Assembly (NCBI RefSeq): GCF_022808915.1
Contig: NZ_JAKZFS010000001.1
Coordinates: forward strand, 186,001-250,000
Reading direction: 5' to 3'
DNA: 64,000 nucleotides
Source: Fundidesulfovibrio terrae
GTDB taxonomy: Bacteria > Desulfobacterota > Desulfovibrionia > Desulfovibrionales > Desulfovibrionaceae
Part shown: piece by piece, positions 49,408 through 64,000 of the stretch
Layout of the letters: each line of letters opens with the position of its first letter
How positions within the stretch are numbered: position 1 is the stretch's first letter
Notes under the pieces: generated by a model
What the model was told of the DNA's origin: nothing
Databases searched by the model: none
What the model saw: only the letters and a program-made list of their open reading frames with translations
Program-made: the position numbers and the translations under genes

Positions 49408-49441
49408 GAAAAAGGGCCTACGATTTTCATCGTAAGCCCTT
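49408..49441 (-). terminator. Terminator downstream of the tRNA-Phe 3' end
   Basis: On the reverse strand AAGGGCTTACGAT pairs with ATCGTAGGCCCTT (one mismatch) around a short loop, followed by TTTTTC. It stands 8 bases past the CCA end of the tRNA fragment and would terminate the tRNA transcript in the uninterrupted ancestor. Confidence 0.8.
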
Positions 49442-49448
49442 GATTTCG

Positions 49449-49493
49449 TGGTGCCGAGGGAGAGAATTGAACTCCCGACACGGGGATTTTCAG
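49449..49493 (-). other. tRNA-Phe 3' half: left attachment site of the island
   Basis: The reverse strand reads CTGAAAATCCCC, then GTGTC, then the T arm GGGAGTTCAATTCTCTC and CCTCGGCACCA. The anticodon loop CTGAAAA gives anticodon GAA (Phe). The 5' half is missing: bases beyond 49493 do not complete the anticodon stem (TGT instead of the needed GGGG), and no GCCGAGG acceptor strand lies upstream. A 3' tRNA remnant flanking low-GC DNA is what an integrated element leaves at one end. An intact tRNA-Phe should stand at the other end, beyond the window. Confidence 0.82.
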
Positions 49494-49781: not shown

Positions 49782-51539
49782 TTAGCGCCTTTGATGTCTC
49801 CACCTGTTCGCAACCTGCCTGAGTTGCTCAATGGACATGGCCTTGCTCTGCCAACCTTTGTCAAAGTTGATGTCATGCGACTTAGGCAACTGCTCGGATG
49901 TGAGATTTCTAATCATAATCCGTGATGGCAACATTGCCGCTTGGCCAACAAAAATCGCCTCTTGACGCCGCAATCCAGAAAGCATCTTGGTCAGACTCGC
50001 CATTGAATCAGGTAGAACGCCTCGAACATGTTCACGATCTGAATCATTTGTTATACGAAGTACAACCCAGGAATTACACTGTGACAATACCGTAGACTCT
50101 ACTTCGCTAGGCCGCTGTGACACTAGAAAGAGGCCAATTCCGTACTTTCTGCCTTCCTTGGCAATTCGTCTAATTGCATTTTGGGCAGCAGCATACTGCG
50201 CCTCCCCACTGTTCGGGACGTAACGATGTGCTTCCTCACAAACGAGAACGACAGGGCTGACTTCTCTCTCCTCAGCAGATTGCCAGATTTTCAGTGAAAA
50301 AAGAGTTCTTGCGATCGCTGCGCTGGCAGTGCCCGCTACTTCATTCGGTACTCCAGAAAGATCAACAACCCTTACAGCAGAATCTTCTCCTAGAAGTTGA
50401 GCAAGCACCGATGGCATAGGATCATCTGATCCGTCCCATGGCTTCATCATAAACGAAAGTCTCTCATCTTTCATCAACGACTCAAGCTTTCGAAGTACCT
50501 TGTTGTAGTCCTCGTGATCCTTCTTGTTTTTGTTATTTGGCCTCTGTTCGTTGATCGCGCCAACCAGGCCAATACCATATCTTGATCCATTTATTTCTCC
50601 AAAATCATCCAGGCCAACTGGGTCGCCCAGAATATATGGTATAGGGGCGTCGACCGTAAGATCGCCAGGTGTGAGGCCAAGAACTTCTTTTGCAGATTTA
50701 TAACGAGCAATTAACAAAGCGTTCTTAACAATATTCGATTGTGACGTCGCAGCATACTCAGTTTTTCCGATTAAAAGACCGATCGTCTCTTCAAGATCAA
50801 GAAGCCAGTAAGGTAGAGACAGTGTGCCCTCATCTGTTGAAAGCCTTTTGTGACCGTCAAAAGCATTTCCATATTCGTTGTGCGGGTCAAGTATGATGAT
50901 TTGCGGAAGCCAATTGTCTCTGCCTGCATTCTTACCATGTTCTATGACACTGTGTATAATTGCGGCAACTGCTCCGGACTTACCAGAACCTGTTGACCCA
51001 AGAATCGCAGTATGTTTACCAAGAAGTTCGTTTAAATCAGCATAGCACGGAGCCCCTCCCGCGCCAACATGCTCTCCTAGCTGAATAACAGCACCCTTGA
51101 AGTGCCCATAAATAAATCGCAGTTCTGACCTGGGTGTCAAATAAACAGTTTGTTGGGGCAATGGGTAGGTCGCCACGCCCCGCTCAAATTTTAGTTTCGA
51201 CAGCCCGGCCTCATCATGCGTCCATTCTCCTTCTCCAAAAAGATCAGCTTCAACAATTCGTTCATCTGGAGCTGCATGAGGGATGAGGCCGCGTTCGACC
51301 TCATACTCCGCTTTCATTCGCAGCCTTCCCACAAGCGCATAAATAAGACGTCGCCCAAAATGTATGCGGACGATTGAGCCAAATTGCCCGATAGGATATG
51401 ACTCACCAGCGTAGACTCGCGAAAGTTCCGTAAGGCCCGGGTCTAGCTCAGCTATGATGCGTGAGCCATCAACTTCGATAATTTTCCCGATTGCCAAGTT
51501 TTCAACTGGCTCACCTGGATTTCGCTTTTTAATGCTCAT
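49782..51539 (-). CDS. HerA-type hexameric ATPase of a SIR2-HerA defence pair
   Basis: A 585-residue HerA/FtsK-superfamily motor. An N-terminal HAS-barrel-like domain (NLAIGKIIEVDGSRIIAEL) is followed by Walker A GSTGSGKSGAVAAI (about 181), IIILDPHNEYGNAF, Walker B VVLVCEEAHRYVP, the arginine-rich GRKYGIGLFLVSQRPSEVESTVLSQCNSWVVLRI and a C-terminal RQEAIFVGQA lid. ATG 51539 overlaps the SIR2 stop (ATGA), so the two are coupled. HerA with a SIR2 partner is an established anti-phage pair in which the complex acts on NAD+ and DNA during infection. Confidence 0.92.
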   Translation of the reverse strand: MSIKKRNPGEPVENLAIGKIIEVDGSRIIAELDPGLTELSRVYAGESYPIGQFGSIVRIHFGRRLIYALVGRLRMKAEYEVERGLIPHAAPDERIVEADLFGEGEWTHDEAGLSKLKFERGVATYPLPQQTVYLTPRSELRFIYGHFKGAVIQLGEHVGAGGAPCYADLNELLGKHTAILGSTGSGKSGAVAAIIHSVIEHGKNAGRDNWLPQIIILDPHNEYGNAFDGHKRLSTDEGTLSLPYWLLDLEETIGLLIGKTEYAATSQSNIVKNALLIARYKSAKEVLGLTPGDLTVDAPIPYILGDPVGLDDFGEINGSRYGIGLVGAINEQRPNNKNKKDHEDYNKVLRKLESLMKDERLSFMMKPWDGSDDPMPSVLAQLLGEDSAVRVVDLSGVPNEVAGTASAAIARTLFSLKIWQSAEEREVSPVVLVCEEAHRYVPNSGEAQYAAAQNAIRRIAKEGRKYGIGLFLVSQRPSEVESTVLSQCNSWVVLRITNDSDREHVRGVLPDSMASLTKMLSGLRRQEAIFVGQAAMLPSRIMIRNLTSEQLPKSHDINFDKGWQSKAMSIEQLRQVANRWRHQRR

Positions 51540-52687
51540 CGTTCCCCCCGGAGCAACCGAGTTAAGTTCTCGAATTTCCACCAAAGGAGGTCTGTTTTCA
51601 CTTCCACAGAGAACTCACCATGAAAAAAACCACGGTTCGAATAAATCAATACCTGGTCTCGAATCCCATCTTCTTCATTCCACGCCTTCAGCTGGCCAGT
51701 TGGCACGTCTTCGCTTGTAAATGCTATAATAGTCAGATCACCTGCTGACTCGCGAAGAGCCCTGTCAATCTCAATGTTAATGTGTGTGTCCCCAAAACTG
51801 TAACCACATATGACCAGCACGCGTTGCGAACCCATTTTCGGCCTCATAATGTGCCTTGCCCTGTCCATCAATTGAGCATACGGGTCCAGTTGTGTTTCAC
51901 GATGTTTTGTTGAGGCTGGCCAAATAAGAATTCTACGCTCATCGCCAGAGTCTTTTATTTGGAGACATGATCCCACTCTGCGCGGCAGGGGGTCGTCTGT
52001 AAGTTCACACCAATTGATTGATCCATGGAGTTTAAGGACACGAGCGGCCAACCCATCACGCTCAAAGGTTTGAGGATTCCACCAGCCCGTAACACCACCA
52101 TCAATTCCATCCGAGTAAGAAACTCGCTCTAAAGCCAATGCATCTTCAATAGCGGTGTCGTAATTGAGCACGAGATAATCTACTACTTGTCCTGGCGATG
52201 TCTTCCCGACGCGAACAGGACGATGCACGGCCTCCACAAACGACCTATGTGTGTCAATTACAATATTTTTTTCGACAATTAAGGCTATGACATTTTTAAT
52301 TTTATTGACTGCGCTTCTGAGTTGCTTGGCTGTATACTCTGCTGTTCCTAATGACATCTTGTTCAGGGTGGCACCACGTTCGTCTCGACGCTCCACAATG
52401 GCGAGCATATCAACTAGCTCGCTTAAATAGTCTTCAATGTGTGCAGACCTAGAGCCTCCGAACTGATTTTTAAATTCATTTAAAATTGTCTTGCTTGCGT
52501 CATCTAATTCACTGCTTCCAAGTACCGAATCTGTCAATTCAGTGATCAAAGGAAGTCCAGCACACCGACTACAGCCTGCTCCCACAAGAAATATACGCCC
52601 CCCCTGAATGAGAAGGTCGTCTAATTTGGCAATGGCCTCAGAAAATTGAGCTCCTCGAAACACAGACAGGTCGTCTGGAGATGCCAT
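51536..52687 (-). CDS. SIR2-domain NADase-type defence effector
   Basis: A 383-residue SIR2-fold protein. NAD-binding GAGCSRCAGLP is at residues 36-46, then LVLNYDTAIEDALAL (the N-x-D site of defence SIR2 proteins), KLHGSINW with the catalytic His, and VLVICGYSFGDTHINIEIDRAL. Defence SIR2 proteins deplete NAD+ on phage infection, causing abortive growth arrest. AAGGAGGG stands four bases before ATG 52687. It is upstream of and overlaps HerA. A probable promoter lies in the 112-base gap to the Res gene. Confidence 0.92.
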   Translation of the reverse strand: MASPDDLSVFRGAQFSEAIAKLDDLLIQGGRIFLVGAGCSRCAGLPLITELTDSVLGSSELDDASKTILNEFKNQFGGSRSAHIEDYLSELVDMLAIVERRDERGATLNKMSLGTAEYTAKQLRSAVNKIKNVIALIVEKNIVIDTHRSFVEAVHRPVRVGKTSPGQVVDYLVLNYDTAIEDALALERVSYSDGIDGGVTGWWNPQTFERDGLAARVLKLHGSINWCELTDDPLPRRVGSCLQIKDSGDERRILIWPASTKHRETQLDPYAQLMDRARHIMRPKMGSQRVLVICGYSFGDTHINIEIDRALRESAGDLTIIAFTSEDVPTGQLKAWNEEDGIRDQVLIYSNRGFFHGEFSVEVKTDLLWWKFENLTRLLRGER

Positions 52688-52799: not shown

Positions 52800-55523
52800 C
52801 TAGGCTCCCTCAGTCCCATGTCCATGTAAATTGCCTTGCTCTGGAAATTCAGGCTCCTTCTCAAACGTCGAATAAAGCTGGCTAAAACTCTTCGGACGAT
52901 ACTTATCCCATTCTGTTTGCAGAACGTACAAGGGCTTGATGCTCTTCCCTGATTGTGCGGACGCGTCCTTGCACCAATCGACTAAACGTTTCCACTTTAG
53001 AGGAACATCAAGGTCGGCCTTCCCCTTGGTTTCGATGACCCAAATATCCAATTCCGACTCCTTCACGATGAAGTCTGGGTAGTAGTTAGCGATGCCACCG
53101 TCCGCGTTTCTGTACTCGACCTTGAAATAGGTGCTCTGGGAGTTCTTGATGAACGAAACGATGTCATCACATCCATCCAGGAAGGCAGCAAATTCAAGTT
53201 CGAAATGGCTGTCACCCACCACCTTGTTAAAGATGGACTTTTTGGGAACGACATAGGCTTGGTCATTCACCAGGAAGGGGCGTGTCTTGCGGAACTGAAT
53301 ATGGTCCCTGACTTCGGTAGTCCCCTTGTCATGGACCGTGAGGGCATTCACCGCAGATTTGAAGTTCTCCACGATTGCCTTAGTTGCCGCTTGGTCTGAG
53401 AGGTTCCGCAGAACATTTAAATCCGACAGGTCGACTTCCTTTTCGAAGAGATACCCCGTGATGTAATCCTTGAGCTTTCCAAATAGGATGTCGAACCCAC
53501 CAACCAAGCGGAGGTCCCTCATGATGAGTTGGCAAAAGTACCCTATGACCGCCTGGGGACTAGGTTCCAGGCTCATGTCGAGAACCGTCGAATGGCTTAT
53601 CTTGTCGCTATCAATATCCTTGAAGATAATCTCCCGCTGCTCCTCCTCGGTATATTCATGAATCTTGAGCTTGGGAGTTTTGACCTCTGAAACGTCCAGT
53701 TCATGGAGGTTCTTGTATTCTCGGTAAATTCTTGGAGTGAGAACGGGCAGTTTGATGTCCATCTCATCAAGGTCTTTTTGCGGGTTCTCTTTGTCGACCT
53801 CAATGACCATCGGCGACTTGGGCTTGGTCTTCTCGCCCATCTCGGCGTATTCAAGTTCAACGCCTTCGCTCTTGATGGACTCGACAAACTGGATAAACGC
53901 TTCAGTTCCAACCACGCTCACTTTCTCTTGAACGGGTTCGCCCCTGAACATCCTCCTCAACCCTCTGCCAAGGGTCTGTTCGGGAAGGATTTTGCTCTTC
54001 GCCTTGTATGGACGCAAACCGACGATGGATACTACGTTTTGAACGTCCCAGCCTTCCCGAAGCATCATGACCGAAACAATCACCTCATAGGGGCTTGCTG
54101 GATCATCTATAACCCTGCTGGCTTCGCGCAGCTTGTCCAGTTCGTCCTGGGCCTTCTTTCCAGCAGCCTCGGAGATTTCACCGTTGGCTTTCGTATGGAT
54201 GACCAGGACCTTCCCACCCAACTCGGGATAGTTCTTCTCGTAGTATTGTCCCACCTCGTCGCAAGTCTGAGTGTCGTCAGTCATGACGAACAGGATGGGC
54301 TTCTTCCCTGTCGAGGAAAGCTCCTTCTTGACGTTCCTCCATTCGAGGTAGCCAAGATGGAGATAGTCCCTGTACTGTTCTGAGTACTGATCGCTTTTTC
54401 TTTCTTGGAGCTTCGCCCTGGACGCCGAGTCAGGAAGCACCGGAGTCTTCACGACCCCCTGCCTAATGGCTTCAACCAAGGGATAGTCGCTGATCGTCTG
54501 CACGAACATCGCACCGTTCGTGTGCTTCGGCGTGGCTGAAAGATCGAACTGAGCCGAAAGCTTGCTATCCTTGAGACGTAGCTGGCTTGAAATGTCTTCG
54601 ATACTTTTGAACCAAGCCAGGTTCTTATCATGGATATGATGAGCTTCGTCGTTGATCACCACGAGGTTCGGCACCTCTCTGATGATCTTCCCAAGGTCCG
54701 TCTTCGAATCGGTGGTCTTTCCCGTCGGACGTTTGCCGAGAAAGTAGTCCATGGTGTTGTCGTCATCGATCGAGGGAGTGCTTCCGTTCTCGAACACACG
54801 ATGGATATTGGTCAGGAAGATGTTTCCTGTGTCCGATAGGACGCCGATGTCGTCCTGGATGTGCAAGGTTACTTGGAAGTCATCCTTCCAGTTCTGCCCT
54901 TCATATCCATTCTCGGGCAGGACGGGGTCTTGATGAAAAATCTTTAGCCCTTGGAAGTCGTCGTAGAGCCTGTCCAGGACGATGATGTTTGGCGCGATGA
55001 GCAGGAAGTTCGTGCTCAGGTCAGAACCTTCCTCATATCGTTTGTGGAAGTATGACCACGCCACAAGCAGGCTCATGATTTTGGTCTTGCCTGCGCCGGT
55101 GGCCATCTTCACCACGTACCGGGTCCAGTCCTCGTCGAACATCCCCTGAGAGATATGCCCCGAAGAGTCGTACTTCATCAGAGAGTACGGATCACGGGCC
55201 TGTTCGATCTCGTACAGCCAGATGACGGACTCAACCGCCTCACGCTGGCAGAAGTAGTACTGGAACCTGAACATGGTCCCATCAGCCTTAGGGATCATGT
55301 GCTCTTCATCGAACCAGTACTTGAGCAGGGCCTTGGTGGTTTCGCTGGCTCCGGCGTAACCTCTTTCACGCCACTTGATCACACCCTTGCGGATTTTATG
55401 GACCAGCGGAGGGAGGAGTTTTTCATACCCCATTTCGTCCAGCATGGCGTCACCTGGATACCAGCGAATATCGGGGGTAAGGATGGCGTGAGGGTCATTC
55501 GGAAACGTCGACGGCAGAGCCAT
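52800..55523 (-). CDS. res: Type III restriction enzyme, Res (helicase/endonuclease) subunit
   Basis: A 907-residue SF2 translocase. Walker A is MATGAGKTKIM (about 140-150), the DEAH box NDEAHHIHD, motif III LSATPKHTNGAMF and motif VI QTLGRGLRRMF. The nuclease is at the C-terminus: YYPDFIVKESELDIWVIETKGK gives PD..E-x-K near residue 820. It cuts DNA with the Mod subunit after ATP-driven movement between two head-to-head sites. Its ATG shares a base with the mod stop (TAATG), so the pair is coupled. Length matches the family. Confidence 0.94.
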   Translation of the reverse strand: MALPSTFPNDPHAILTPDIRWYPGDAMLDEMGYEKLLPPLVHKIRKGVIKWRERGYAGASETTKALLKYWFDEEHMIPKADGTMFRFQYYFCQREAVESVIWLYEIEQARDPYSLMKYDSSGHISQGMFDEDWTRYVVKMATGAGKTKIMSLLVAWSYFHKRYEEGSDLSTNFLLIAPNIIVLDRLYDDFQGLKIFHQDPVLPENGYEGQNWKDDFQVTLHIQDDIGVLSDTGNIFLTNIHRVFENGSTPSIDDDNTMDYFLGKRPTGKTTDSKTDLGKIIREVPNLVVINDEAHHIHDKNLAWFKSIEDISSQLRLKDSKLSAQFDLSATPKHTNGAMFVQTISDYPLVEAIRQGVVKTPVLPDSASRAKLQERKSDQYSEQYRDYLHLGYLEWRNVKKELSSTGKKPILFVMTDDTQTCDEVGQYYEKNYPELGGKVLVIHTKANGEISEAAGKKAQDELDKLREASRVIDDPASPYEVIVSVMMLREGWDVQNVVSIVGLRPYKAKSKILPEQTLGRGLRRMFRGEPVQEKVSVVGTEAFIQFVESIKSEGVELEYAEMGEKTKPKSPMVIEVDKENPQKDLDEMDIKLPVLTPRIYREYKNLHELDVSEVKTPKLKIHEYTEEEQREIIFKDIDSDKISHSTVLDMSLEPSPQAVIGYFCQLIMRDLRLVGGFDILFGKLKDYITGYLFEKEVDLSDLNVLRNLSDQAATKAIVENFKSAVNALTVHDKGTTEVRDHIQFRKTRPFLVNDQAYVVPKKSIFNKVVGDSHFELEFAAFLDGCDDIVSFIKNSQSTYFKVEYRNADGGIANYYPDFIVKESELDIWVIETKGKADLDVPLKWKRLVDWCKDASAQSGKSIKPLYVLQTEWDKYRPKSFSQLYSTFEKEPEFPEQGNLHGHGTEGA

Positions 55524-57790
55524 TAGATTTTCACCTCCACCACCTTGGTCGTGTCGTTTCCAAAGATGTCGATCACTTTCACCGCCACCTTGTACTTGCC
55601 CTTCTCGGGGTAGTCGTACTTGCCGCTCATAAGTTCGAGTCGGCGTTCACTCTTGGTTCGGAATGACTGCCATTCGTTCTCGAAGATGTAGTTGCCCGTC
55701 CAGACTTGGCGCTCTTCCCCGTCTTCGAGGATCGTGATGATCTCCTTGCGGCTCTCGTAGTCGAAGTCCACCGCCCAATAATCGATCCAATCCGTCCACT
55801 TCTTGGTCAGGACCTCTCGGGATACGACGCCGCTCTTGTCCTTGCTGATCTTCACCACCTGCCCGCCGTCGATGGTGACTTTGCTGCCTCCATCCTTGAG
55901 GGATTCCCCCAGGCTATCAAGGTCGTCCTGGCGGTAAAACACCCCGAAGTCCTTGAGGTGAAGTTGGATGGTCTTCCCTTGGACCTTGGGCATGATGTCA
56001 ACGAATGCCACATCATAGAACTTGACTTGATTACGTTCGATGGCGCGCCGATCAAACACGTCTTTCGGGATGTACTTCAGGCTGAGGGTGACACCCTTTT
56101 GTCTGGCTTCGTCCTGAATGGCTGGAACCAGCCCCATCTCGAACTCGAAGCCAAGGATGTCCGCCTTGCTGATCTTGTTCTGGCGACACGCATCTATGGC
56201 TTCATTGACCTGGGCCAGCGTCACCGGCGCATCAATAGGGCCGACCAGAACCACCGTGCTTCCCTTCTTCCCGTGGAATGGGGATAGCTGGAATATCCGT
56301 TCTGCCTTGTAGGCGGAAAGGATGAGGGTCAGGTAGTGCTCTTCACGTTGCAGGGTCTGGGCCTTCCTCTGCTCCTCGGGCAAGGTGGGGTCGATGCCCA
56401 CGAAGTACTGACGTTCGTATTTGCCGAGGTTCAGGATTTCAAAGCTGCGGTAGGGTTTGCCTGATTGCTTGAGTTCGCGCTGTACGCCGATCATACGTTT
56501 TCTGGTTGTATGAATGGCAAACCTGCCAAGATCACAGCCAATCCACTTCCTGCCGAGCTTTTCCGCGACTGCTAGCGTTGTACCTGAGCCACAGAAAAAG
56601 TCTGCGACAAGGTCATCCTTGTTCGATGTTGCACGTATTATTCTATCAAGCAGAGCTTCTGGTTTTTGGGTTGCGTAGTCAACAAGCTCATTAGATTGAT
56701 TATGAATCTTATTGATGTCTGTCCAAATGTCTTGAAGAACCGTCCCCTCGTATTCGCTCTCATAACATTTTAGCCTTGGCATCCCACCGTCTTTTTTGGG
56801 GTAATGAATTCTTCCTTTTTTTTCGAACTCTTCCATTTTGTCTATAGTGCAGGCCCAAGTCCTATTTTTCGATGGCCATGCACCTTTCCATTCGTAAACT
56901 AAGTTTCCTCCGTCTCCATGTCTCGGGGCATCCATGGGTATTCTATTGTATCTTTCTTTTCTGTCATCATCATATTGGTCAAAAAACTGTTCTAAATATT
57001 CAGCGCTTGGCTTTTGCAAAACTTTATTCCATGTCCTTTTGTCTGAATTTGAATAATACAGGACCACGTCATGGATCATGCCGCAGCGAGAAGGGTCATT
57101 GTGCGCGAATGCCCTTCTCCAAATGATTTGGTTTATGAAATTGGAACAACCAAACACATCATCGAGAACGCTTCGCACAACGTGAGACACCTTGGGGCCA
57201 ATATGAACAAAAATACTTCCATCGCTGGCAAGCAAAGATTTTATTAGCAACAATCTTTCATATACCATCGAAAGGTAGGAGTCAGCACCCCTCCCCCAGG
57301 TGTCTCGGTATGCAAGCTCTTCAATGATGCTGGGCTCCTTTGTTAATGTTTCTGGCCCAACACCAATGTTAAACGAAAAGTCAGCACCCACGTCAAACGG
57401 TGGGTCGATGTAGACCAGCTTTAACCCGCCAGCCTTTTCAATCTCTTCGCGCATGGGACCGTTCTTAAGCGAGGAAAGGACCAGCTTGTTGTCGCCCCAG
57501 ATGAGCTTGTTTGACCACCCGCTTTGCTGTCTGCCGCTGTTTGTGTCGCAAGAAAAAAGACTGAACGAGTCCTTTCCGACAACCATGTTGGCGTCCTTGC
57601 GAGGTTCGTCTATCTGCTCGATGGACTGGAATGGCAGCACTACGTTGGTCACTTCACTGGTCTTGCCAGCCCAGACAAGTTCAACTTCGGGAACGTTTTC
57701 GAACAACTGGGACTTGTATTTCGCAGGGAGCTTTTCGCCTCTATCAATCATTGCTTTCAGCTGTTCTTTCTCGTGGTCAGTGAAATTCAT
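55523..57790 (-). CDS. mod: Type III DNA methyltransferase, Mod subunit
   Basis: A 755-residue adenine methyltransferase. Motif IV DPPF is at about 129 and motif I FFCGSGTTLAVAE near 405, the order of beta-class enzymes, with the target recognition region between them. Mod fixes the recognition site and protects host DNA. ATG 57790 has AAGGAG nine bases before it; an earlier start adds seven residues. The middle of the gene (about 56.5-57.4 kb) is much richer in A and T than both ends, as if the recognition domain had been swapped. It is upstream of res. Confidence 0.94.
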   Translation of the reverse strand: MNFTDHEKEQLKAMIDRGEKLPAKYKSQLFENVPEVELVWAGKTSEVTNVVLPFQSIEQIDEPRKDANMVVGKDSFSLFSCDTNSGRQQSGWSNKLIWGDNKLVLSSLKNGPMREEIEKAGGLKLVYIDPPFDVGADFSFNIGVGPETLTKEPSIIEELAYRDTWGRGADSYLSMVYERLLLIKSLLASDGSIFVHIGPKVSHVVRSVLDDVFGCSNFINQIIWRRAFAHNDPSRCGMIHDVVLYYSNSDKRTWNKVLQKPSAEYLEQFFDQYDDDRKERYNRIPMDAPRHGDGGNLVYEWKGAWPSKNRTWACTIDKMEEFEKKGRIHYPKKDGGMPRLKCYESEYEGTVLQDIWTDINKIHNQSNELVDYATQKPEALLDRIIRATSNKDDLVADFFCGSGTTLAVAEKLGRKWIGCDLGRFAIHTTRKRMIGVQRELKQSGKPYRSFEILNLGKYERQYFVGIDPTLPEEQRKAQTLQREEHYLTLILSAYKAERIFQLSPFHGKKGSTVVLVGPIDAPVTLAQVNEAIDACRQNKISKADILGFEFEMGLVPAIQDEARQKGVTLSLKYIPKDVFDRRAIERNQVKFYDVAFVDIMPKVQGKTIQLHLKDFGVFYRQDDLDSLGESLKDGGSKVTIDGGQVVKISKDKSGVVSREVLTKKWTDWIDYWAVDFDYESRKEIITILEDGEERQVWTGNYIFENEWQSFRTKSERRLELMSGKYDYPEKGKYKVAVKVIDIFGNDTTKVVEVKI

Positions 57791-57896
57791 TACGCGTCGC
57801 TCCTTCAACAAATACTGCGAAAGTTACTAGCAAATCAGAACGCATAACAAAAGAAAATGGGCCGATTTCTCGACCCGGTAAAAATGTTTCCTCAAA

Positions 57897-58823
57897 CTAC
57901 GCAGCAAGCTTCCTATCCCGAAGGATTTCAGAAAACTGCGCCCGTTTCTTCTCCAGTGCCAGGCACTGCTTGAGCAGGGTGGTCTGCTCATCCACCTGAC
58001 GCGCGTTCATTTCCTTCATAGCACAAACCCCATACCGCTCGCACACGTAGCCCCGGTATTCTTCCCAGAGGTCGTCATTGAGACCTAGCTGAGCGAATAT
58101 CTCAGCGAGTCGGTCAGCATCGGAAATCTTCCCTGTTTCGGTAGAGATTTCCGAGTTATTCAACCAGTTGAGAAGACCTTCACCCATGGCAGGGCTAGGC
58201 GTCAACCGGGTTCCGTCAAAAATCCCGGTCCTGTCTTTGCTCGCGGTTGCTACATGGCCTTCAATCGAGAGGTCCATGACCACAGTGAACTCGTATTCGA
58301 GTCCTTCTCGCTGTATTGGCGCGAGTCCAACCTTGCTGACCTTGGTCTTTCCATGCTCAGAAGTGACCTCATAGCCGGTCTTGGTGCGCATGGTCACGAT
58401 GACATGGCATGAGCTTGCGAGTATCGCATCTACCAACTGATTGTGTTGAGGGGTAACTTCCCGCCAAGCATCAAATGAGTTTCTAACTGCCTTGGCAGTT
58501 CGATCATGGAGCGTAAGTATTCCGCCTTCTCCAGCCCACGCATGGGACAGGCTGTCGATAATGAGCACATTGTAGCCAGCTTCCTCAGCCGCCTTGATGC
58601 CCTCGATATATTTTCGAGGTTCAAAGGGCGGATCGAGCTTGAGCACGTCATAATCGACGATGTTCGCGTAGAGCGAGCCAGAGCCTCTTTCGGTGTCGAT
58701 CATAGCGATCCGTCCACCGAGACCCTTGGCGATCTGAAGCGAGCTAAAAGTTTTACCGCTTCCAGCTGGGCCAGTGAGAGCCAAACGAAGCTTGGAACTA
58801 CTTCTTTGAGCCTTCTGAAACAT
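57897..58823 (-). CDS. Sak4/AAA_24-like RecA-fold ATPase
   Basis: A 308-residue RecA-core ATPase starting MFQKAQRSSSKLRLALTGPAGSGKTFSSLQIAKGLGG, with Walker A GPAGSGKT, IAMIDTERGSGSLYA, and Walker B VLIIDSLSHAW. This pattern fits the phage and island ATPases (Sak4, AAA_24) that help single-strand annealing recombination. C-terminal half (MKEMNARQVDEQTTLLKQC) is helical. ATG 58823 follows GGAGG. The Fe-S exonuclease-like gene nearby suggests a recombinase/exonuclease pair. Its start overlaps the end of a 60-residue Cys/His protein gene. Confidence 0.82.
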   Translation of the reverse strand: MFQKAQRSSSKLRLALTGPAGSGKTFSSLQIAKGLGGRIAMIDTERGSGSLYANIVDYDVLKLDPPFEPRKYIEGIKAAEEAGYNVLIIDSLSHAWAGEGGILTLHDRTAKAVRNSFDAWREVTPQHNQLVDAILASSCHVIVTMRTKTGYEVTSEHGKTKVSKVGLAPIQREGLEYEFTVVMDLSIEGHVATASKDRTGIFDGTRLTPSPAMGEGLLNWLNNSEISTETGKISDADRLAEIFAQLGLNDDLWEEYRGYVCERYGVCAMKEMNARQVDEQTTLLKQCLALEKKRAQFSEILRDRKLAA

Positions 58824-58980
58824 GGTGACCTCCATGATCTGGACGCAGGCATTGCCCGCGATGTTTGTTGAAGCACGTTTTGTGGAAGATTCGGTCTTCG
58901 CTGTAGGCATTGATACCTACTGTAACCTTCGTCATCTCTTCCGATGACTCAATGATTTCTTGGCAATACCAACAAACCAT
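58798..58980 (-). CDS. Tiny Cys/His-rich putative zinc-binding protein
   Basis: A 60-residue protein opening MVCWYCQEIIESSEE, then IFHKTCFNKHRGQC. The C-x2-C, H-x2-C, with spacing of roughly 30 residues, fits a LIM/ZZ-like zinc knuckle. GAGGCGATGAG precedes the ATG. It starts nine bases after the nuclease gene ends and overlaps the next gene by 26 bases, which fits a compact operon. Family unknown; short length keeps confidence modest. Confidence 0.55.
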   Translation of the reverse strand: MVCWYCQEIIESSEEMTKVTVGINAYSEDRIFHKTCFNKHRGQCLRPDHGGHHVSEGSKK

Positions 58981-58989
58981 CTCATCGCC

Positions 58990-59874
58990 TCAGAAACCTA
59001 CAACGGATTTGAGAGGTATCTTAACTACGCGGCGTTCCTTGAGGTCCTGATGATACAGGAGCCAATGTCGTTCGCCGAAGGTCTGAACAGCCTTCTCATC
59101 GTGCATGAAGCACAACGACTCATATTCGCACCAGCCGCAGTGAACTCCTGGGCATGGCCAGAAATGACCAGCCTTGATATCAGCAGCAACTTTTCTGCAA
59201 AGTCGGTAGAGTTCCAGGAAATCAGGCAAACTGCGTCGACCTTCATCCCAGATGACTTTTGGTTCCTTTGTTCTGACCAGATGGATCAGGGCCACGGGGG
59301 AATTTGTCTGTGATGTTTCTGGCGTGAAAGGCTGACTGTACAGGTAAGCGTAGAACGTCAGTTCCATTGCAAGCCTGCCGAGGCCTTCATGTGGAGTCTT
59401 TGCAGCAGTCTTCAAATCTGCGATACAAAAAGACCCCTTAGTATCTGTATGTATGAGCAGATCGATGTAGCCGAGTTGGTTTATCTCTGGATGCTCAACC
59501 AGTGTTATTGGATGTATCAACGGTGACGAGAGCTTGAGTTCAACCTGTGACACAGGCAGAGGTCCAAGCTGCTCAAGAAAGGCTTTGGATTCAGCCAAGC
59601 ACCTTGCTTGAGCCTTGAGGTATTCGCCTTCATCTGTGTAGTCGCACAATTCAATCGTATTCTCTTCCCAGAAACTTCTCGAAGCGTGTTCGAGCACGTC
59701 AACGGGTGGAGAGTCTCGGTAGAGAAGTCCGCATTGAACCTGGTGATGGATCGCGGACCCTTCGACCAAGCTCTTTGCTCGTTTGAGAGGTCGTAGGCCC
59801 AGCTCGTAATGCAGCCGGTATTTCTCCGAGCATCCGAGGTAGGTATTGATCCTCGTTTTCGAGAGGGTGAGCAT
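58990..59874 (-). CDS. PD-(D/E)XK nuclease with Fe-S cysteines (Cas4/RecB-like exonuclease)
   Basis: A 294-residue nuclease. The N-terminal LSKTRINTYLGCSEKYRLHYE carries the first of four cysteines; VEGSAIHHQVQ, then GYIDLLIHTDT and FCIADLKTA form the PD-(D/E)XK core (D..D-x-K); the C-terminal CPGVHCGWCEYESLC carries the other cysteines of a [4Fe-4S] cluster, as in Cas4, AddB and related 5' exonucleases. ATG 59874 has AGGAG upstream. In this setting it probably resects DNA for the neighbouring ATPase; CRISPR genes are absent. Confidence 0.87.
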   Translation of the reverse strand: MLTLSKTRINTYLGCSEKYRLHYELGLRPLKRAKSLVEGSAIHHQVQCGLLYRDSPPVDVLEHASRSFWEENTIELCDYTDEGEYLKAQARCLAESKAFLEQLGPLPVSQVELKLSSPLIHPITLVEHPEINQLGYIDLLIHTDTKGSFCIADLKTAAKTPHEGLGRLAMELTFYAYLYSQPFTPETSQTNSPVALIHLVRTKEPKVIWDEGRRSLPDFLELYRLCRKVAADIKAGHFWPCPGVHCGWCEYESLCFMHDEKAVQTFGERHWLLYHQDLKERRVVKIPLKSVVGF

Positions 59875-60002
59875 GGGATAGCTCCTATGTTTTGGACGTT
59901 CCAGAAAATGGAATAGGGAGGCAGCTATATTTCGAGCCACCTCCCCACCATGAGAGTTCGCAAGCGTGTTCGCGTGTTTGTTCAGTAGCAAATCGCTAAT
60001 CG

Positions 60003-60911
60003 CTAGGCTGCTTCTTGAAGATTCCCCCGATCAGCGCCAGCATCCAGGTGGATACGGCGTCGGGGCATTTCGTCGATGGCAGCGTCGATGGCTGTTTTGA
60101 GGTTCGCGAAGTCGCTGGTGACCTTTTGCCTGAGCACGTCTTGGTAAGTGACGGCATAGGGGTTCCCGTTCACGGTTTTCACCAGAGTGCGGGCTTCGTC
60201 GACCAGCGCGGCGAGTTTGTCGTCCTGGAACAGGTTCCTTTCGGAGAAACCGTCCAAGAATTCATTGATCCTGTTAGTCATATTTGACCTGAGAATCTTC
60301 GGCTTGTCGCCGCCTGTAACCTTGTCAGAGAGATGGGTAATGACCTCGCTGAATTCCTCGCGAAGAGCGGCAATAGCCAGTTCACGAGTTTCAGCCATAA
60401 GGTCCTGAAATTTCTCCTTCTCACGCTGGTAAGTTTCCGGCGAGAGAAAGGTTGCCTTGGTGGGCACGTCGAGCAGCATAAAGCGCCACTCGAACTTGAA
60501 TTTGGTCCGAATATCCTGGGGATAGTCGGTGTCATTGAACAGCTCGCCGAGAGCTGTCTTGGCTTCTTCGCGGGCGTCCACGTAGAACTCCGCAAAGGAG
60601 TTCACCTTGTTCATGAAATCGGACTGGAACATTTCCAGGCGATTATCGATCTCATCGATCGATTCTTTGGGCACTAGGTGAAGCCCAGAGATGGGAAACG
60701 GCAACGCATATCGTTGCAACAATTTTCTCGCCATCTGTATCGTGGCTTTCAATGGGGATAGAACTTCCGGGTTCACCAAAAGTTTCTTACCCTTGAGCCA
60801 CTCGGTATTCCCGAGATTGCCCATGAGGCTTTGATTGATGTCTTTGGCACCGGTCCAACACGAGGTAGCGAGCTGGACTAAACAAGCCTTTTTGAAGATG
60901 TCATTGCTCAT
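60003..60911 (-). CDS. DUF3150 family protein
   Basis: A 302-residue helical protein: MSNDIFKKACLVQLATSCWTG, NLGNTEWLKGKKLLVNPEVL, ALPFPISGLHLVPKES and GFSERNLFQDDKLAALV are the pattern of DUF3150, a family found in mobile elements near AAA ATPases. Function unknown. AAAGGAGA lies just before ATG 60911. Upstream lies the 229-base hairpin-rich gap. Downstream, after about 130 bases, is the Fe-S nuclease. Confidence 0.75.
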   Translation of the reverse strand: MSNDIFKKACLVQLATSCWTGAKDINQSLMGNLGNTEWLKGKKLLVNPEVLSPLKATIQMARKLLQRYALPFPISGLHLVPKESIDEIDNRLEMFQSDFMNKVNSFAEFYVDAREEAKTALGELFNDTDYPQDIRTKFKFEWRFMLLDVPTKATFLSPETYQREKEKFQDLMAETRELAIAALREEFSEVITHLSDKVTGGDKPKILRSNMTNRINEFLDGFSERNLFQDDKLAALVDEARTLVKTVNGNPYAVTYQDVLRQKVTSDFANLKTAIDAAIDEMPRRRIHLDAGADRGNLQEAA

Positions 60912-61008
60912 GTGAAAGTCTCCTTTATGGTCTTTGCAGACCATAGTTGCGGGTGGGGTCGCAGAGCATCTTGCAACAATGCAATGGGCTCAAATGTTAC
61001 AACCCTTG

Positions 61009-61155
61009 GGGTACACGATATTCCGTATACCCTGAAATCATAGACTTTTTGGGAGTTGGACGGGTGAACGGTTCCTGAGATTGGGGGGGTGGGTGAAATT
61101 TCATCCACCCTGGAATGATTGACTTTTCTGGAACATAGGCGGGAAATATCCCGCC
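61009..61155. repeat. Three palindromic hairpins with a repeated spacer
   Basis: Inverted repeats lie at 61009-61032 (GGGTA/TACCC arms), 61087-61110 (GGGTGG/CCACCC arms around TGAAATTTCA) and 61138-61155 (GGCGGGA/TCCCGCC). The first two are 78 bases apart, and each is followed by a related spacer, CTGAAATCATAGACTTTTT and CTGGAATGATTGACTTTTC. All sit in the 259-base region between DUF2997 and DUF3150. They may be RNA hairpins controlling DUF3150, or protein-binding iterons. Confidence 0.7.
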
Positions 61156-61173
61156 CCTGTGAAAATGCACCGC

Positions 61174-61374
61174 TCAGCCGCATAGGTTGATGTGCTTGCG
61201 CAGTTCAACATCGTTCTTTTGATAGAACATTGGCGTAAGGCATCTGGATGTTTCGTGGCCAAGTAGGCCTTTGAGGAATTGAGATTCTTCAAGACACACT
61301 GGGCCAGCGAAACCTGTTGTTTCGATGCGGACTTCGCCAGTATTGTCGATGTCGACGATGATTTGTTTAGCCAT
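61174..61374 (-). CDS. DUF2997 family small protein
   Basis: A 66-residue protein, MAKQIIVDIDNTGEVRIETTGFAGPVCLEESQFLKGLLGHE: this opening (two strands, GFAG, C..E..F) is the DUF2997 pattern. The family has no known function, but it repeatedly neighbours DUF1257. ATG 61374 is chosen; twelve codons upstream there is another start. It follows DUF1257 by about 105 bases on the same strand. The extra C-terminal part (RCLTPMFYQKNDVELRKH) is not family-typical. Confidence 0.72.
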   Translation of the reverse strand: MAKQIIVDIDNTGEVRIETTGFAGPVCLEESQFLKGLLGHETSRCLTPMFYQKNDVELRKHINLCG

Positions 61375-61479
61375 AGGCAAAGCACCTCTGATCCCACATA
61401 TGCTATGCATTGTGGATTGTTTGTTTTTGGCCGCGCGCCAGAATTGAGTGAACAGTGAGACTGCTAGAGAAGGAAGCGA

Positions 61480-61902
61480 CTAGGCAGAGAGAACCAATCG
61501 GATGCCCGTGTCTGTTTTCTTTTCGATGACGCGGTAATTGCGTCTCCTGGCTTCCAGGATGGTTCTTTCGACCGCGTAAGCTTGCTTGAGCTTTCCGCCA
61601 TTGTCGCCAATTGCGATCTTCAAGCGAGTGTCCCAGTAATCGGCGAGCAGCAAGAATTTCGTTCCTTGCTGAACTACACCGATCTCATAGGATGCGTTTG
61701 GGATGTGAATCGCGTGATGGCATTTGCCGAGGTCTTTCTCGGTGATGCCTTCTGGCAATGGTGTAGATTCTGGATTTACTAGGCGTCCATACCAGACGTA
61801 GGTTGTTTGCCCAGCGCAAAATTCAAGACCAAGTCTTTGGCAAGCTTTCTTCAAACTGGCCAGATCGTTAATCTCGACTTCTATTTTGCTTACATGTGAC
61901 AA
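61480..61902 (-). CDS. DUF1257 (Ycf35-like) protein
   Basis: A 140-residue protein starting MSHVSKIEVEINDLASLKKACQRLGLEF, the exact DUF1257 opening, and ending EARRRNYRVIEKKTDTGIRLVLSA. Plastid Ycf35 belongs to this family; function unknown. The start is TTG 61902 with GGAGG six bases before it; longer frames overlap the AAA gene and lack resemblance. It starts 13 bases after the end of the Ycf46-like gene and is thus co-transcribed. Confidence 0.85.
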   Translation of the reverse strand: MSHVSKIEVEINDLASLKKACQRLGLEFCAGQTTYVWYGRLVNPESTPLPEGITEKDLGKCHHAIHIPNASYEIGVVQQGTKFLLLADYWDTRLKIAIGDNGGKLKQAYAVERTILEARRRNYRVIEKKTDTGIRLVLSA

Positions 61903-61915
61903 AACGCACCTCCAG

Positions 61916-63349
61916 TTATTGAACTGTTGGAGTTGAAGTTGGACCAGTTCGTATTCTGCGAGTCTCTTCAGGCTCATCATCAGGTGTATTGGCAGGACGC
62001 GCGCGAGTTCTTGCCCAGTTGCGTAGGGCTTCGATTTCTTCACGCATTGTCCTTGAGAGAGGTATCACTGAGTGAAATGCCGTTTCCATGTCTGTGAACA
62101 TGGATTCGCGGCATATCTGCTCAATCTCAGCTCCTGAATAACCGTTGAGGTTGGCAGCGTATTCGAGAGGTATCTTTGTACCGTATCGAGCGTTCATGAT
62201 CTTGAGGATATCACGTCGCTCTCTGAGGCTTGGCAGGTCCACCATGAATATGGCATCAAACCGGCCAGCTCGTATCGTTTCGGGAGGGAGCTTGGTGATG
62301 TCGTTGGCAGTCGCCATGACGAACACGGGTGAGGTGTTCTCCTGGAGCCAAGTGAGCAAATGGCTGAACATGCCAGAAGTAGTTCCAGCATCGGTCTCGC
62401 CAGAGCTTTTGACTCCTGACAGGGCTTTTTCGAGTTCATCAAGCCACACGACGCACTCGCCAAATGACGAGATGATCTGTGTTGCCTGACGAATCTTCTT
62501 CTCACTCTCTCCGACTAGGGAGCCCTTCAAGGCTCCGATATCTAATCGGATCAATGGCCAACCGAGTATTGACGCGGCGGCTTTGCAAGAGAGACTCTTT
62601 CCTGTGCCGGGTATCCCGACGAGTAAGAGGCCTTTTGGCCTGGGTAAGCTTTCGTTACCAGGCGTAAACGCCTTCGCACGGGACTTGATGTAGGCTTTGA
62701 GCTGACTCAAGCCTCCGACATTAGACAAATGCTCAGGTTCCCAGACTTCGAGAAGCCCTGATTTTCTGATCAGTTGCGCTTTCAGTTGGGCGATGATGTT
62801 TGAGGAGAAGTAGCGGCGTTTGACGAGTGATAGGGCGTATGCGCATTCGGCTTCGTATTCGGTGAGTCCACGTGCCAGCCGAGCAGCTTTGCGGTTCGGT
62901 CTGACATTCAGTGGGTTGCCGAGTTCATTCTGGAGTATGTAAAGGTCTTCAGTATCAGGAAGTGGAAGGTCAAGAACTGTAAATATAGATTTCAGTTCTG
63001 GACGCATTTGGATTTGAGGAGAGATCACGACGAGGCAGTTGCCTTTCGCTTTCCACGTATCAGATCCGTTTTGTATGCATTGAATCACCTCAACGGAATC
63101 CGTGAACAAGTGTAGATTGTGAGCTAACATAACTGCATCTTGAACAGTGTCCAACCAACGTAGCATCTCAACAGGGTCGCGTACTTCCTCCAGGATCTTT
63201 TGACTACCAGCGAGTCGTATGCCACGCTGGCAGTCCCAGGCGAAGAATCGCCAGTGACCGTCAAATGGGATGATCTTTTCGGCTCTTGCTGGCTCAGTTG
63301 TGAGCAGAAGCAATGCCGGAAAACCTGCCTTCAAGTATTCCTGTAGCAT
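61916..63349 (-). CDS. Ycf46-like AAA+ ATPase
   Basis: A 477-residue protein. Residues 1-200 form a RecA-like Ycf46 N-domain (MLQEYLKAGFPALLLLTTEPARAE, FFAWDCQRGI, CLVVISPQIQMRPELKSIFTVLDLPLPD). The AAA+ core follows: Walker A GIPGTGKS at 245-252, Walker B VVWLDELEK at 300-308, sensor 1 and arginine region in VMATANDITKLPPETIRAGRFD, sensor 2 in YSGAEIEQICRES. Ycf46 is a plastid and cyanobacterial ATPase linked to CO2 response there. ATG 63349 has GGAGG eight bases upstream; the ATG 15 bases earlier overlaps the ribosome site. It heads the leftward module. Confidence 0.85.
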   Translation of the reverse strand: MLQEYLKAGFPALLLLTTEPARAEKIIPFDGHWRFFAWDCQRGIRLAGSQKILEEVRDPVEMLRWLDTVQDAVMLAHNLHLFTDSVEVIQCIQNGSDTWKAKGNCLVVISPQIQMRPELKSIFTVLDLPLPDTEDLYILQNELGNPLNVRPNRKAARLARGLTEYEAECAYALSLVKRRYFSSNIIAQLKAQLIRKSGLLEVWEPEHLSNVGGLSQLKAYIKSRAKAFTPGNESLPRPKGLLLVGIPGTGKSLSCKAAASILGWPLIRLDIGALKGSLVGESEKKIRQATQIISSFGECVVWLDELEKALSGVKSSGETDAGTTSGMFSHLLTWLQENTSPVFVMATANDITKLPPETIRAGRFDAIFMVDLPSLRERRDILKIMNARYGTKIPLEYAANLNGYSGAEIEQICRESMFTDMETAFHSVIPLSRTMREEIEALRNWARTRARPANTPDDEPEETRRIRTGPTSTPTVQ

Positions 63350-63361
63350 GCTGAAAACCTC

Positions 63362-63399
63362 CATATATGTAGTTACAATACAATTTCTATATATGCAGG
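63362..63399 (-). promoter_or_regulatory. AT-rich inverted repeat before the Ycf46-like gene
   Basis: CATATATGTAG (63362-63372) and CTATATATG (63388-63396) form an inverted repeat with one looped base around 15 AT-rich bases. TATATA on the reverse strand could be a -10 box. The site lies 13-47 bases before the AAA start and could be the operator of the module. Confidence 0.35.
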
Positions 63400-63746: not shown

Positions 63747-64000
63747 ATGATCTACCAGCTACACGTGCAGCTGCTCGGGATAACCCCGCTGATTTGGCGC
63801 AGGATTCAGGTGCCGGGAGAAGTCTCCCTATTTCGACTCAATCTGCTCATCCAGCGAGCTATGGGCTGGAAGAATACTCACTTGAGTGAGTTCAACATAG
63901 ATAGCCGTAAATACGGTGCGACAGAACAAGACCACTTTGCAGAAGGTGTTTACGAATTCAAGAAATTCAAGCTGTCTCAAGTTGTGACAGCTGCTGGGCA
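63747..64000 (+). CDS. pRiA4b ORF-3-like protein, cut by the right edge
   Basis: The first 84 residues, MIYQLHVQLLGITPLIWRRI onward, have the pRiA4b ORF-3 signature: L-x-G-I-x-P-x-I-W-R-R-I-x-V-P, then LFRLNLLIQRAMGW and HLSEFNI. Such proteins, also called IS1096 passenger-like, are common in plasmids and mobile elements; function unknown. GGGAGAG stands right before the ATG. It is the only rightward gene in the island and begins after the hairpin-rich region. Confidence 0.82.
   Translation, partial: MIYQLHVQLLGITPLIWRRIQVPGEVSLFRLNLLIQRAMGWKNTHLSEFNIDSRKYGATEQDHFAEGVYEFKKFKLSQVVTAAG

Follow-up and report, generated by a model that had tools for sequence, protein, structure and literature searches.

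A seven-gene operon on an integrative element of Fundidesulfovibrio terrae places a Ycf46-type AAA+ ATPase and DUF3150 beside Sak4-like and nuclease genes

The stretch of DNA analyzed here, referred to as the window, comprises 64,000 nucleotides of the Fundidesulfovibrio terrae genome (assembly GCF_022808915.1, contig NZ_JAKZFS010000001.1, positions 186,001 to 250,000) and carries a seven-gene operon on the minus strand that belongs to an integrative element. Its genes overlap or are separated by short gaps; in the order of transcription, they encode an AAA+ ATPase, DUF1257, DUF2997 and DUF3150 proteins, a PD-(D/E)XK nuclease, a small (60-residue) Cys/His protein, and a Sak4-like ATPase. An initial annotation had listed seven or eight genes in one direction; their direction and order stand, the count is seven rather than eight, and all but the 60-residue protein have Pfam matches. 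Comparison with a second copy in the same genome and with copies from Solidesulfovibrio sets the likely starts at 63349 (ATPase), 61902 (DUF1257, a non-ATG start), 61374, 60911, 59874, 58980, and 58823.

The first gene (61916..63349, with an alternative longer start at 63364) encodes a classical AAA+ ATPase of 477 amino acids with an N-terminal domain (Pfam AAA, 3e-25; phrog_8638, 7e-104). Its Walker A, Walker B, sensor, and arginine-finger-like motifs read as intact, and the solved structures nearest to residues ~241-424 are Cdc48/VCP-type ATPases. We call this protein Ycf46-type, a name carried over from the initial annotation; our alignments compare it with the ATPases of the chromosomal gene sets described below rather than with a Ycf46 reference. 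The DUF1257, or Ycf35-like, protein (61480..61902, 140 amino acids) belongs to PF06868 (2.4e-5, 24.9 bits against a cut-off of 22.2), shares 86% identity with the DUF1257 protein of the second copy, and has an AlphaFold2 model with a predicted local distance difference test score (pLDDT) of 92.8. DUF2997 (61174..61374, 66 amino acids; PF11211, 8e-10) and DUF3150 (60003..60911, 302 amino acids; PF11348, 4e-12; AlphaFold2 pLDDT 81.7) were each identified by profile match and alignment. We refer to the ATPase, DUF1257, and DUF2997 as the triad, and to the triad with DUF3150 as the core.

The nuclease (58990..59874, 294 amino acids) is RecB/Cas4-like (PDDEXK_1, 7e-20; phage exonuclease phrog_69, 5e-15), and its residues C15, H43, D138, D153, K155, Y175, C246, C249, and C255 are invariant in all nine aligned family members. 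The PD-(D/E)XK motifs together with the four cysteines (C15, C246, C249, and C255) indicate that it is probably of the Cas4/AddB-like iron-sulfur (Fe-S) type, with a predicted cluster. It falls outside the Cas4 family of CRISPR adaptation, scoring 16.5 bits with the NCBIfam cas4 model against a cut-off of 65; otherwise, the NCBIfam search of the cassette proteins added little. The 60-residue protein (58798..58980) has no family match in Pfam, PHROGs, or NCBIfam, but C-x2-C and H-x2-C motifs suggest that it is probably zinc-binding, and it is 75% identical over 57 residues to its counterpart in the second copy. The last gene (57897..58823) encodes a Sak4-like single-strand annealing protein of the RecA fold, assigned to the Sak4 family by a RecA-like AAA_24 core (2e-23) and a match to the Sak4-like annealase profile phrog_124 (1e-11); its best PHROGs match is phrog_1366 (1e-86), a family with no named function. 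Neither this protein nor the nuclease matched a solved structure. By gene content, adjacent Sak4-like and PD-(D/E)XK genes on a mobile element fit a phage-type (Red-like) annealing recombination module, with annealing and resection as predicted activities. The Sak4 protein of phage HK620 anneals DNA in an ATP-dependent manner, with help from SSB (PMC5928155). The window element resembles that system in its Sak4-family annealase, but it has no called SSB gene and has the nuclease and the AAA machine attached.

A second low-GC (guanine-cytosine) island of the F. terrae genome (G000:C3, ~396-428 kb) carries these seven genes again, in unchanged order, at 83% DNA identity and 75-94% protein identity. 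Two loci of Solidesulfovibrio aerotolerans (L012 and L013) contain six of the seven in the same order; the missing gene is that of the 60-residue protein, which was not found there by profile, and at one of these loci an integrase gene lies ~3 kb beyond the module. Thus, the arrangement is more than chance.

Scans by ATPase similarity extended the comparison to 39 loci (10 usable genome loci and 29 viral contigs, after L022 and L023 were dropped from 41); a few viral contigs nearly duplicate one another, e.g., L027-L029 and L048/L052. The ATPase, DUF1257, DUF2997, and DUF3150 genes follow each other in this order on one strand in 27 of the 39 loci, and 34 have at least the triad. The five remaining loci stop either at the last gene found or no more than 84 bp past it. 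The core is also present in phage Tunturi_3 and in Manganitrophus plasmids. Homologs scattered singly, without conserved neighbors, would have pointed away from a cassette; instead, gene order is strongly conserved across loci. Since selection by ATPase similarity favors finding the core, we used DUF2997 as an independent entry. DUF2997 is present in 45 of 395 genomes from the phylum of F. terrae, and among 30 loci listed, it has DUF1257 alongside in 27 and a module-type ATPase in 28, while DUF3150 was called within ~1.5 kb in 3. A tblastn search of phages with DUF1257 gave no match, although the profile detects DUF1257 in Tunturi_3, and a viral scan with DUF3150 as the query gave one locus.

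Several phages deserve separate mention. In Mycobacterium phage Firecracker (gp100-gp99, L010:5473-8065), a module-type ATPase is followed by a gene with a borderline match to the DUF3150 profile (E 0.01), and the DUF1257 and DUF2997 profiles gave nothing below 0.3; this laboratory phage may thus carry part of the module. Streptococcus satellite phage Javan368 (L011:5974-7551) encodes a module-like AAA ATPase (29% identity) and, nearby, a protein of 574 residues that likely has a membrane segment; DUF1257, DUF2997, and DUF3150 were not called at this locus. By eye, Tunturi_3 gp103 (L007:5195-6790) appears to have a Walker-B-like segment before the Walker-A-like one, as if the AAA domain were permuted. 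In addition, a protein of ~308 residues recurs upstream of the core in 15 viral loci (L030-L042, L050, and L051); its longest member has no Pfam match.

DUF3150 itself, present in 31 of the 395 genomes, has two alternative partner machines: the Ycf46 triad, or a CobS-like (MoxR) ATPase with a CobT/VWA protein. Among the 30 DUF3150 loci listed, 15 adjoin a MoxR/CobS-like ATPase and/or a CobT-like gene, 8 adjoin triad genes (one of them the second copy in F. terrae), and none adjoins both. These counts were made after the MoxR/VWA profile had been rebuilt, its first version, from two sequences, having found 1 of the 15 MoxR loci; one CobT-like protein checked by Pfam matched CobT at 2e-15 and CobT_C at 2e-8. 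The remaining 7 loci adjoin neither machine within ~1.5 kb: L155 is triad-type when more flank is included, the contig of L154 is short, two have DUF2997 at 1.5-2.2 kb on the same contig and strand, and three are left. The occurrence of DUF3150 with both machines suggests a role as their client or as an adaptor to the client.

A CobST pair from a phage likewise consists of a MoxR/CobS-type ATPase and a CobT-type protein, as in the MoxR-type DUF3150 loci. We considered and dropped the idea that all such pairs belong here: at four of five phage cobS loci (L132-L136), CobT-type and CobS genes are neighbors with no DUF3150 between them. Rhizobium phage RHph_X66, Roseobacter phage CRP-810, Escherichia phage Cyrano, and Stenotrophomonas phage DLP_6 differ from the DUF3150 loci in that no DUF3150-sized gene separates the pair. 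At the fifth locus (P-TIM68), several unnamed genes lie between the two, and none of those tested matched DUF3150. A large 'peptidase' of DLP_6 contains a weak match to the DUF3150 profile (8e-4).

Annealase and nuclease genes accompany both machines. We read the 15 MoxR-type loci to ~8 kb and scanned 113 of their 144 listed neighbor proteins. A nuclease was found in 13 of the 15 loci: L148 has the family seen in the window, L152 has YqaJ, and 11 have one with a similar Fe-S-type signature. In these 11, an unnamed protein is encoded within ~1.1 kb upstream of MoxR, with C38, H64, E84, D100, E116, K118, C207, C210, and C216 conserved in at least 10 of the 11; these residues suggest an Fe-S PD-(D/E)XK nuclease signature like that of the window's nuclease, with which profile comparison gave 81% probability over 45 columns. 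An annealase was found in nine MoxR-type loci (six ERF, two RecT, and one Rad52); Pfam counted five ERF and two RecT, and the assignment to individual proteins was partly deduced from clusters and reading. At L148, Rad52, the window-family nuclease, and RadC occur together with MoxR and DUF3150. The same profiles were applied to 19 triad-type loci, which were chosen rather than drawn at random: an annealase is present in 9 (Sak4 in 4, Rad52-like in 5) and a nuclease in 13, and four of the Rad52-like loci also have SSB and UvrD.

The most familiar context is the Bet/Exo operon. In a Salmonella genomic island and an E. coli IncC plasmid, the genes run in one direction as AAA, unknown, SSB, Bet, Exo, DUF3150, and VWA; on a Pseudomonas plasmid, whose DUF3150 is 28% identical, the order is SSB, RecT, Exo, AAA, unknown, DUF3150, unknown, and vWA. 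DUF3150 of the IncC type was matched in 1,102 of 72,556 plasmid records, 970 of them typed as conjugative, and two records were read. The initial annotation had regarded assignment to a known plasmid replication or conjugation system as a refutation of its reading. This holds in part: the closest context is indeed the Bet/Exo operon of the IncC plasmid and the Salmonella island, but the AAA, DUF3150, and VWA genes there have no functional name in the annotation. In SXT/R391 elements, bet and exo homologs mediate nearly all hybrids formed without recA, and IncA/C orthologs are named; the term cobS is absent from the available text of that study (PMC2786100). Like the window operon, the IncC/SXT-type operon is carried by a mobile element and has its annealase and exonuclease genes running in the same direction as those for AAA, DUF3150, and a partner adaptor, a likeness read in the IncC plasmid and the Salmonella island and not in SXT/R391 itself. 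It differs in having a MoxR/CobS-like ATPase and VWA where the window has Ycf46-DUF1257-DUF2997, RecT/Bet and a YqaJ/lambda-type exonuclease where the window has Sak4 and a RecB/Cas4-like nuclease, and SSB inside the operon.

We lean, with modest confidence, toward the view that the seven genes serve a family of integrative elements as an annealing-recombination module, and that either of two interchangeable AAA+ machines acts in it through DUF3150. This view draws on gene identity and order, the machine swap, the repeated linkage of exonucleases and annealases, and two copies with different cargo. According to this model, the RecB/Cas4-like nuclease would resect DNA ends, producing single strands that the Sak4-like protein would anneal. 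The Ycf46-type ring, with DUF1257 and DUF2997 as adaptors, would work through DUF3150 to load, unload, recycle, or remodel recombination (or replication-fork) complexes. In elements of the CobS/CobT type, a ring of the MoxR family and a VWA adaptor would replace the triad, and DUF3150 would be the common part. We infer physical contact among the AAA protein, its adaptors, and DUF3150, a target in the complex of annealase, nuclease, and DNA, and the direction of remodeling. MoxR-VWA rings remodel protein targets (PMC13036017), and the search of solved structures makes the module ATPase kin to Cdc48-type remodelers.

The triad also exists outside mobile elements. Fifteen DUF2997 loci without DUF3150 (L116-L130) are chromosomal in appearance and contain an operon of a Ycf46-type AAA protein, DUF1257, and DUF2997, usually in the same order as in the element module. 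Several adjoin genes for Hsp70-like proteins (by Pfam, L116, L123, and L128) or HEAT-repeat proteins (L116 and L126), a setting that points to a protein-remodeling system. In contrast to the element loci, searches with the same profiles found DUF3150 and annealase, SSB, RadC, UvrD, integrase, or nuclease genes of these kinds in none of the 15. A tree places 29 element ATPases and 14 chromosomal ones on two sides of one branch (support 95/96); the ATPase of L130, which is interrupted by N, was left out. Two unlabeled long-branched phage ATPases, from Firecracker and Javan368, fall on the chromosomal side. At L128 (G208:C115) the order is rearranged to DUF1257, AAA, DUF2997, and Hsp70-like. Seen by eye, a neighbor protein of ~65 residues in chromosomal triads resembles DUF2997.

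A number of observations weigh against a recombination module. On the one hand, the chromosomal triads beside Hsp70 or HEAT genes, without recombination genes, imply that the general activity of the triad is not recombination. On the other hand, the linkage itself is uneven. In the 24 loci found by ATPase similarity for which 166 neighbor proteins were found and 140 listed, 116 were scanned, from 23 loci (18 of them viral), and the 25 commonest families among them include one annealase only, Sak4 of L013. The Burkholderia plasmid (L009), phage MinM2 (L008), and a Manganitrophus plasmid (L005) have DUF3150 with no annotated annealase within 8-9 kb; the exonuclease genes of Tunturi_3 lie 7-9 kb away and no annealase is annotated in it; and many viral contigs have no adjacent annealase. 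The core itself varies: the order is changed at L083 (genome G296), with DUF3150 ahead of the ATPase, and in five large viral contigs with the triad (L045-L048 and L052), DUF3150 was not detected. At L015, L017, L018, and L021, the Rad52-like label comes from an iterated in-house profile; with a single sequence as the query, Rad52 was recovered at L148 and L017 only, and the Pfam match of L015 was to SWIM rather than Rad52. The annealase and nuclease profiles were built from the element loci themselves, and the family of F. terrae alone supplies five of the six ERF loci, so the counts are not independent; the contrast between element and chromosomal loci is therefore qualitative. Finally, neither DUF3150 nor DUF1257 matched a PDB structure below E 0.001 in Foldseek. 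Alignments by VIA-align were weak (DUF1257, best Z 5.1 with a root-mean-square deviation of 3.3 over 74; DUF3150, best Z 10.0 with 3.8 over 126, to helical bundles), and thus we claim no fold for either protein. Against a viral library, the DUF3150 model matched relatives of DUF3150 (best 2e-13) and one protein (2.7e-4) of Mycobacterium phage Dylan, which is related to Firecracker.

The CobS/CobT-like alternative partner, recognized with profiles and at one locus with Pfam CobT, raises the question of whether the core instead acts on metallocofactors or inserts metal, in the manner of cobaltochelatase CobST or NorQD; the iron client would then be the nuclease or some other protein of the element. 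We regard this as unlikely, yet it keeps some weight against the annealing-recombination view because cyanobacterial duf2997 and ycf35 are adjacent to each other and beside the ferredoxin gene fed7 (PMC4284462), plastid ycf35 and ycf46 follow habitat together with the heme oxygenase gene pbsA (PMC5940233), and the partner nucleases carry four conserved cysteines. Furthermore, NorQD inserts metal (PMC13036017), and viral CobST has been proposed to be a B12 booster (PMC8651126). However, the IncC plasmid and the Salmonella island use a YqaJ/lambda-type exonuclease instead, and at L131 the core occurs with Rad52 but without a nuclease called in the vicinity. We know of no Fe-S cluster in the YqaJ/lambda-type exonuclease family. 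The window core itself has neither the MoxR/CobS ATPase nor the CobT-VWA subunits of cobaltochelatase CobST, which occur in the alternative DUF3150 loci. The link to cyanobacteria and plastids is one of Pfam family name for DUF1257 and DUF2997, as opposed to aligned sequences, and the cyanobacterial duf2997-ycf35 cluster, where fed7 adjoins, differs from the window operon in being without DUF3150 or recombination genes, as far as the available text goes (PMC4284462).

It could also be argued that the core serves replication, partition, or copy control of the element, for example, by fork remodeling or in plasmid maintenance, and that the recombination genes are merely neighbors. Both F. terrae islands have Prim-Pol/AAA_25 genes, and at other loci ParB, UvrD, RadC, SSB, and sliding-clamp genes lie near the core. 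Even so, Prim-Pol is several kb away in the islands and was not found by tblastn in the examined stretches of L012 and L013, where the nuclease and Sak4 stay attached, and the linkage of annealase and exonuclease recurs with both machine types. We find such a role rather improbable.

A wider form of the annealing-recombination view is tentative, and we hold it possible but doubtful: DUF3150 may mark a class of recombination machines, so far undescribed, that are driven by AAA+ proteins and occur in phages, integrative elements, and plasmids, perhaps including the 1,102 plasmid records, with Ycf46-Ycf35-DUF2997 and CobS-CobT, unrelated ATPase machines, as functional equivalents that load or recycle annealases. 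If this were true, plastid Ycf46 and Ycf35 would be a house-keeping branch of a protein-remodeling machine, and CobS/CobT genes beside DUF3150 would have been misread as vitamin B12 genes; caution is advisable before every plasmid or phage CobS/CobT pair is taken for a B12 gene. To our knowledge, Ycf46 and Ycf35 have no settled role. The open-licence literature on them, among the matches listed, consists mostly of plastid genome papers, and in the open-licence literature searched we found no mention of DUF3150. The protein families are known individually; the operon, the machine swap, and the link to annealing recombination were not found in that literature and have possibly been described elsewhere. 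An operon that ties Ycf46 and Ycf35 to annealases and exonucleases, with CobS/CobT as a stand-in, brings all these proteins under one testable hypothesis. IncC and SXT-type elements in E. coli, for which a Bet/Exo phenotype has already been measured (PMC2786100), are tractable systems, and the linkage data, showing which genes stay together and which replace each other, keep their use should the mechanism turn out otherwise.

The operon resides on an element of ~24 kb integrated in a tRNA-Phe gene. GC content falls from ~0.67 to ~0.5 near window position 49 kb and rises again ~24 kb further on. The attL site, a 57-bp imperfect direct repeat of the 3' part of the tRNA-Phe gene (25 plus 19 identical bases), is at 49437..49493; its mate (L004 13665-13721) lies outside the window, as does the tRNA-Phe gene (L004 13677-13752), so the tRNA location named in the initial annotation is real although beyond the window edge. 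A tyrosine integrase gene adjoins the tRNA (L004 12562-13635); its product groups with a protein that Pfam assigns to Phage_integrase. Integrase, tRNA target, direct repeats, and atypical GC content together identify an integrative element in a tRNA gene. Besides the seven genes, it contains HerA-like and SIR2-like genes, a type III restriction-modification-like pair, a pRiA4b ORF-3-like gene, Prim-Pol/AAA_25 genes, and the integrase. In the Pfam scan of island proteins, which covered a part of the total and left some without a match, no relaxase, type IV or other secretion, or phage structural gene was recognized.

Two gene pairs identified by Pfam and PADLOC lie next to the operon on the same strand: a type III restriction-modification-like methylase (55523-57811) with its restriction subunit (52800-55523), together spanning 52800..57811, and a SIR2-like gene (51536-52687) with a HerA-like ATPase gene (49782-51584), spanning 49782..52687. 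The initial annotation saw a DNA-processing or defense cassette of an integrative element beside two defense systems; the tRNA-Phe repeats, the integrase, and these two pairs agree with a DNA-processing cassette in that setting. It is also conceivable that the core itself is a defense, anti-defense, or toxin-antitoxin system, in which the AAA+ protein, DUF1257, DUF2997, and DUF3150 sense invading DNA or restrain an effector, and the nuclease and Sak4 act on DNA. Its place next to restriction-modification-like and SIR2-HerA genes would fit, as would the resemblance of the AAA domain to IetA of PADLOC (1.8e-16), the fact that the antitoxin of SGI1 is an AAA+ ATPase of the SpoVK/Ycf46/Vps4 superfamily (PMC10954446), and the occurrence of MoxR-VWA terms in a paper on conflict systems (PMC7159879). 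However, a term search of the main text of the latter paper gave no DUF3150, Ycf46, DUF1257, or DUF2997, and the IetA match is confined to the AAA domain. A PADLOC scan of the core proteins other than DUF2997 and the 60-residue protein gave solely AAA-domain matches (IetA and TRIP13) and weak matches to Cas4, which does not place the core in any known defense system. The core is also found in phage Tunturi_3, and 29 viral contigs have a related ATPase, most of them with the triad. Finally, the cargo differs between the two F. terrae copies while the core stays. A defense role for the cassette itself thus lacks support, and we judge it quite improbable.

The second island bears this out. It shares with the first the ORF-3-like gene (63747..64000 on the plus strand, running out of the window; Pfam 7e-22), at 88% identity, and a Prim-Pol gene, at 34%, but it is without the defense genes of the first island and has in their place a large protein with a sub-threshold STAND-like match. 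Since the seven genes are kept while their neighbors differ, they form the backbone and the defense genes are cargo. A search for a flanking repeat of the second island gave nothing beyond a 14-base match. At G000:C3 401887-408455, N-termini suggest ParB-type proteins, a helicase, and a B12-binding radical SAM enzyme, possibly a further cargo cluster.

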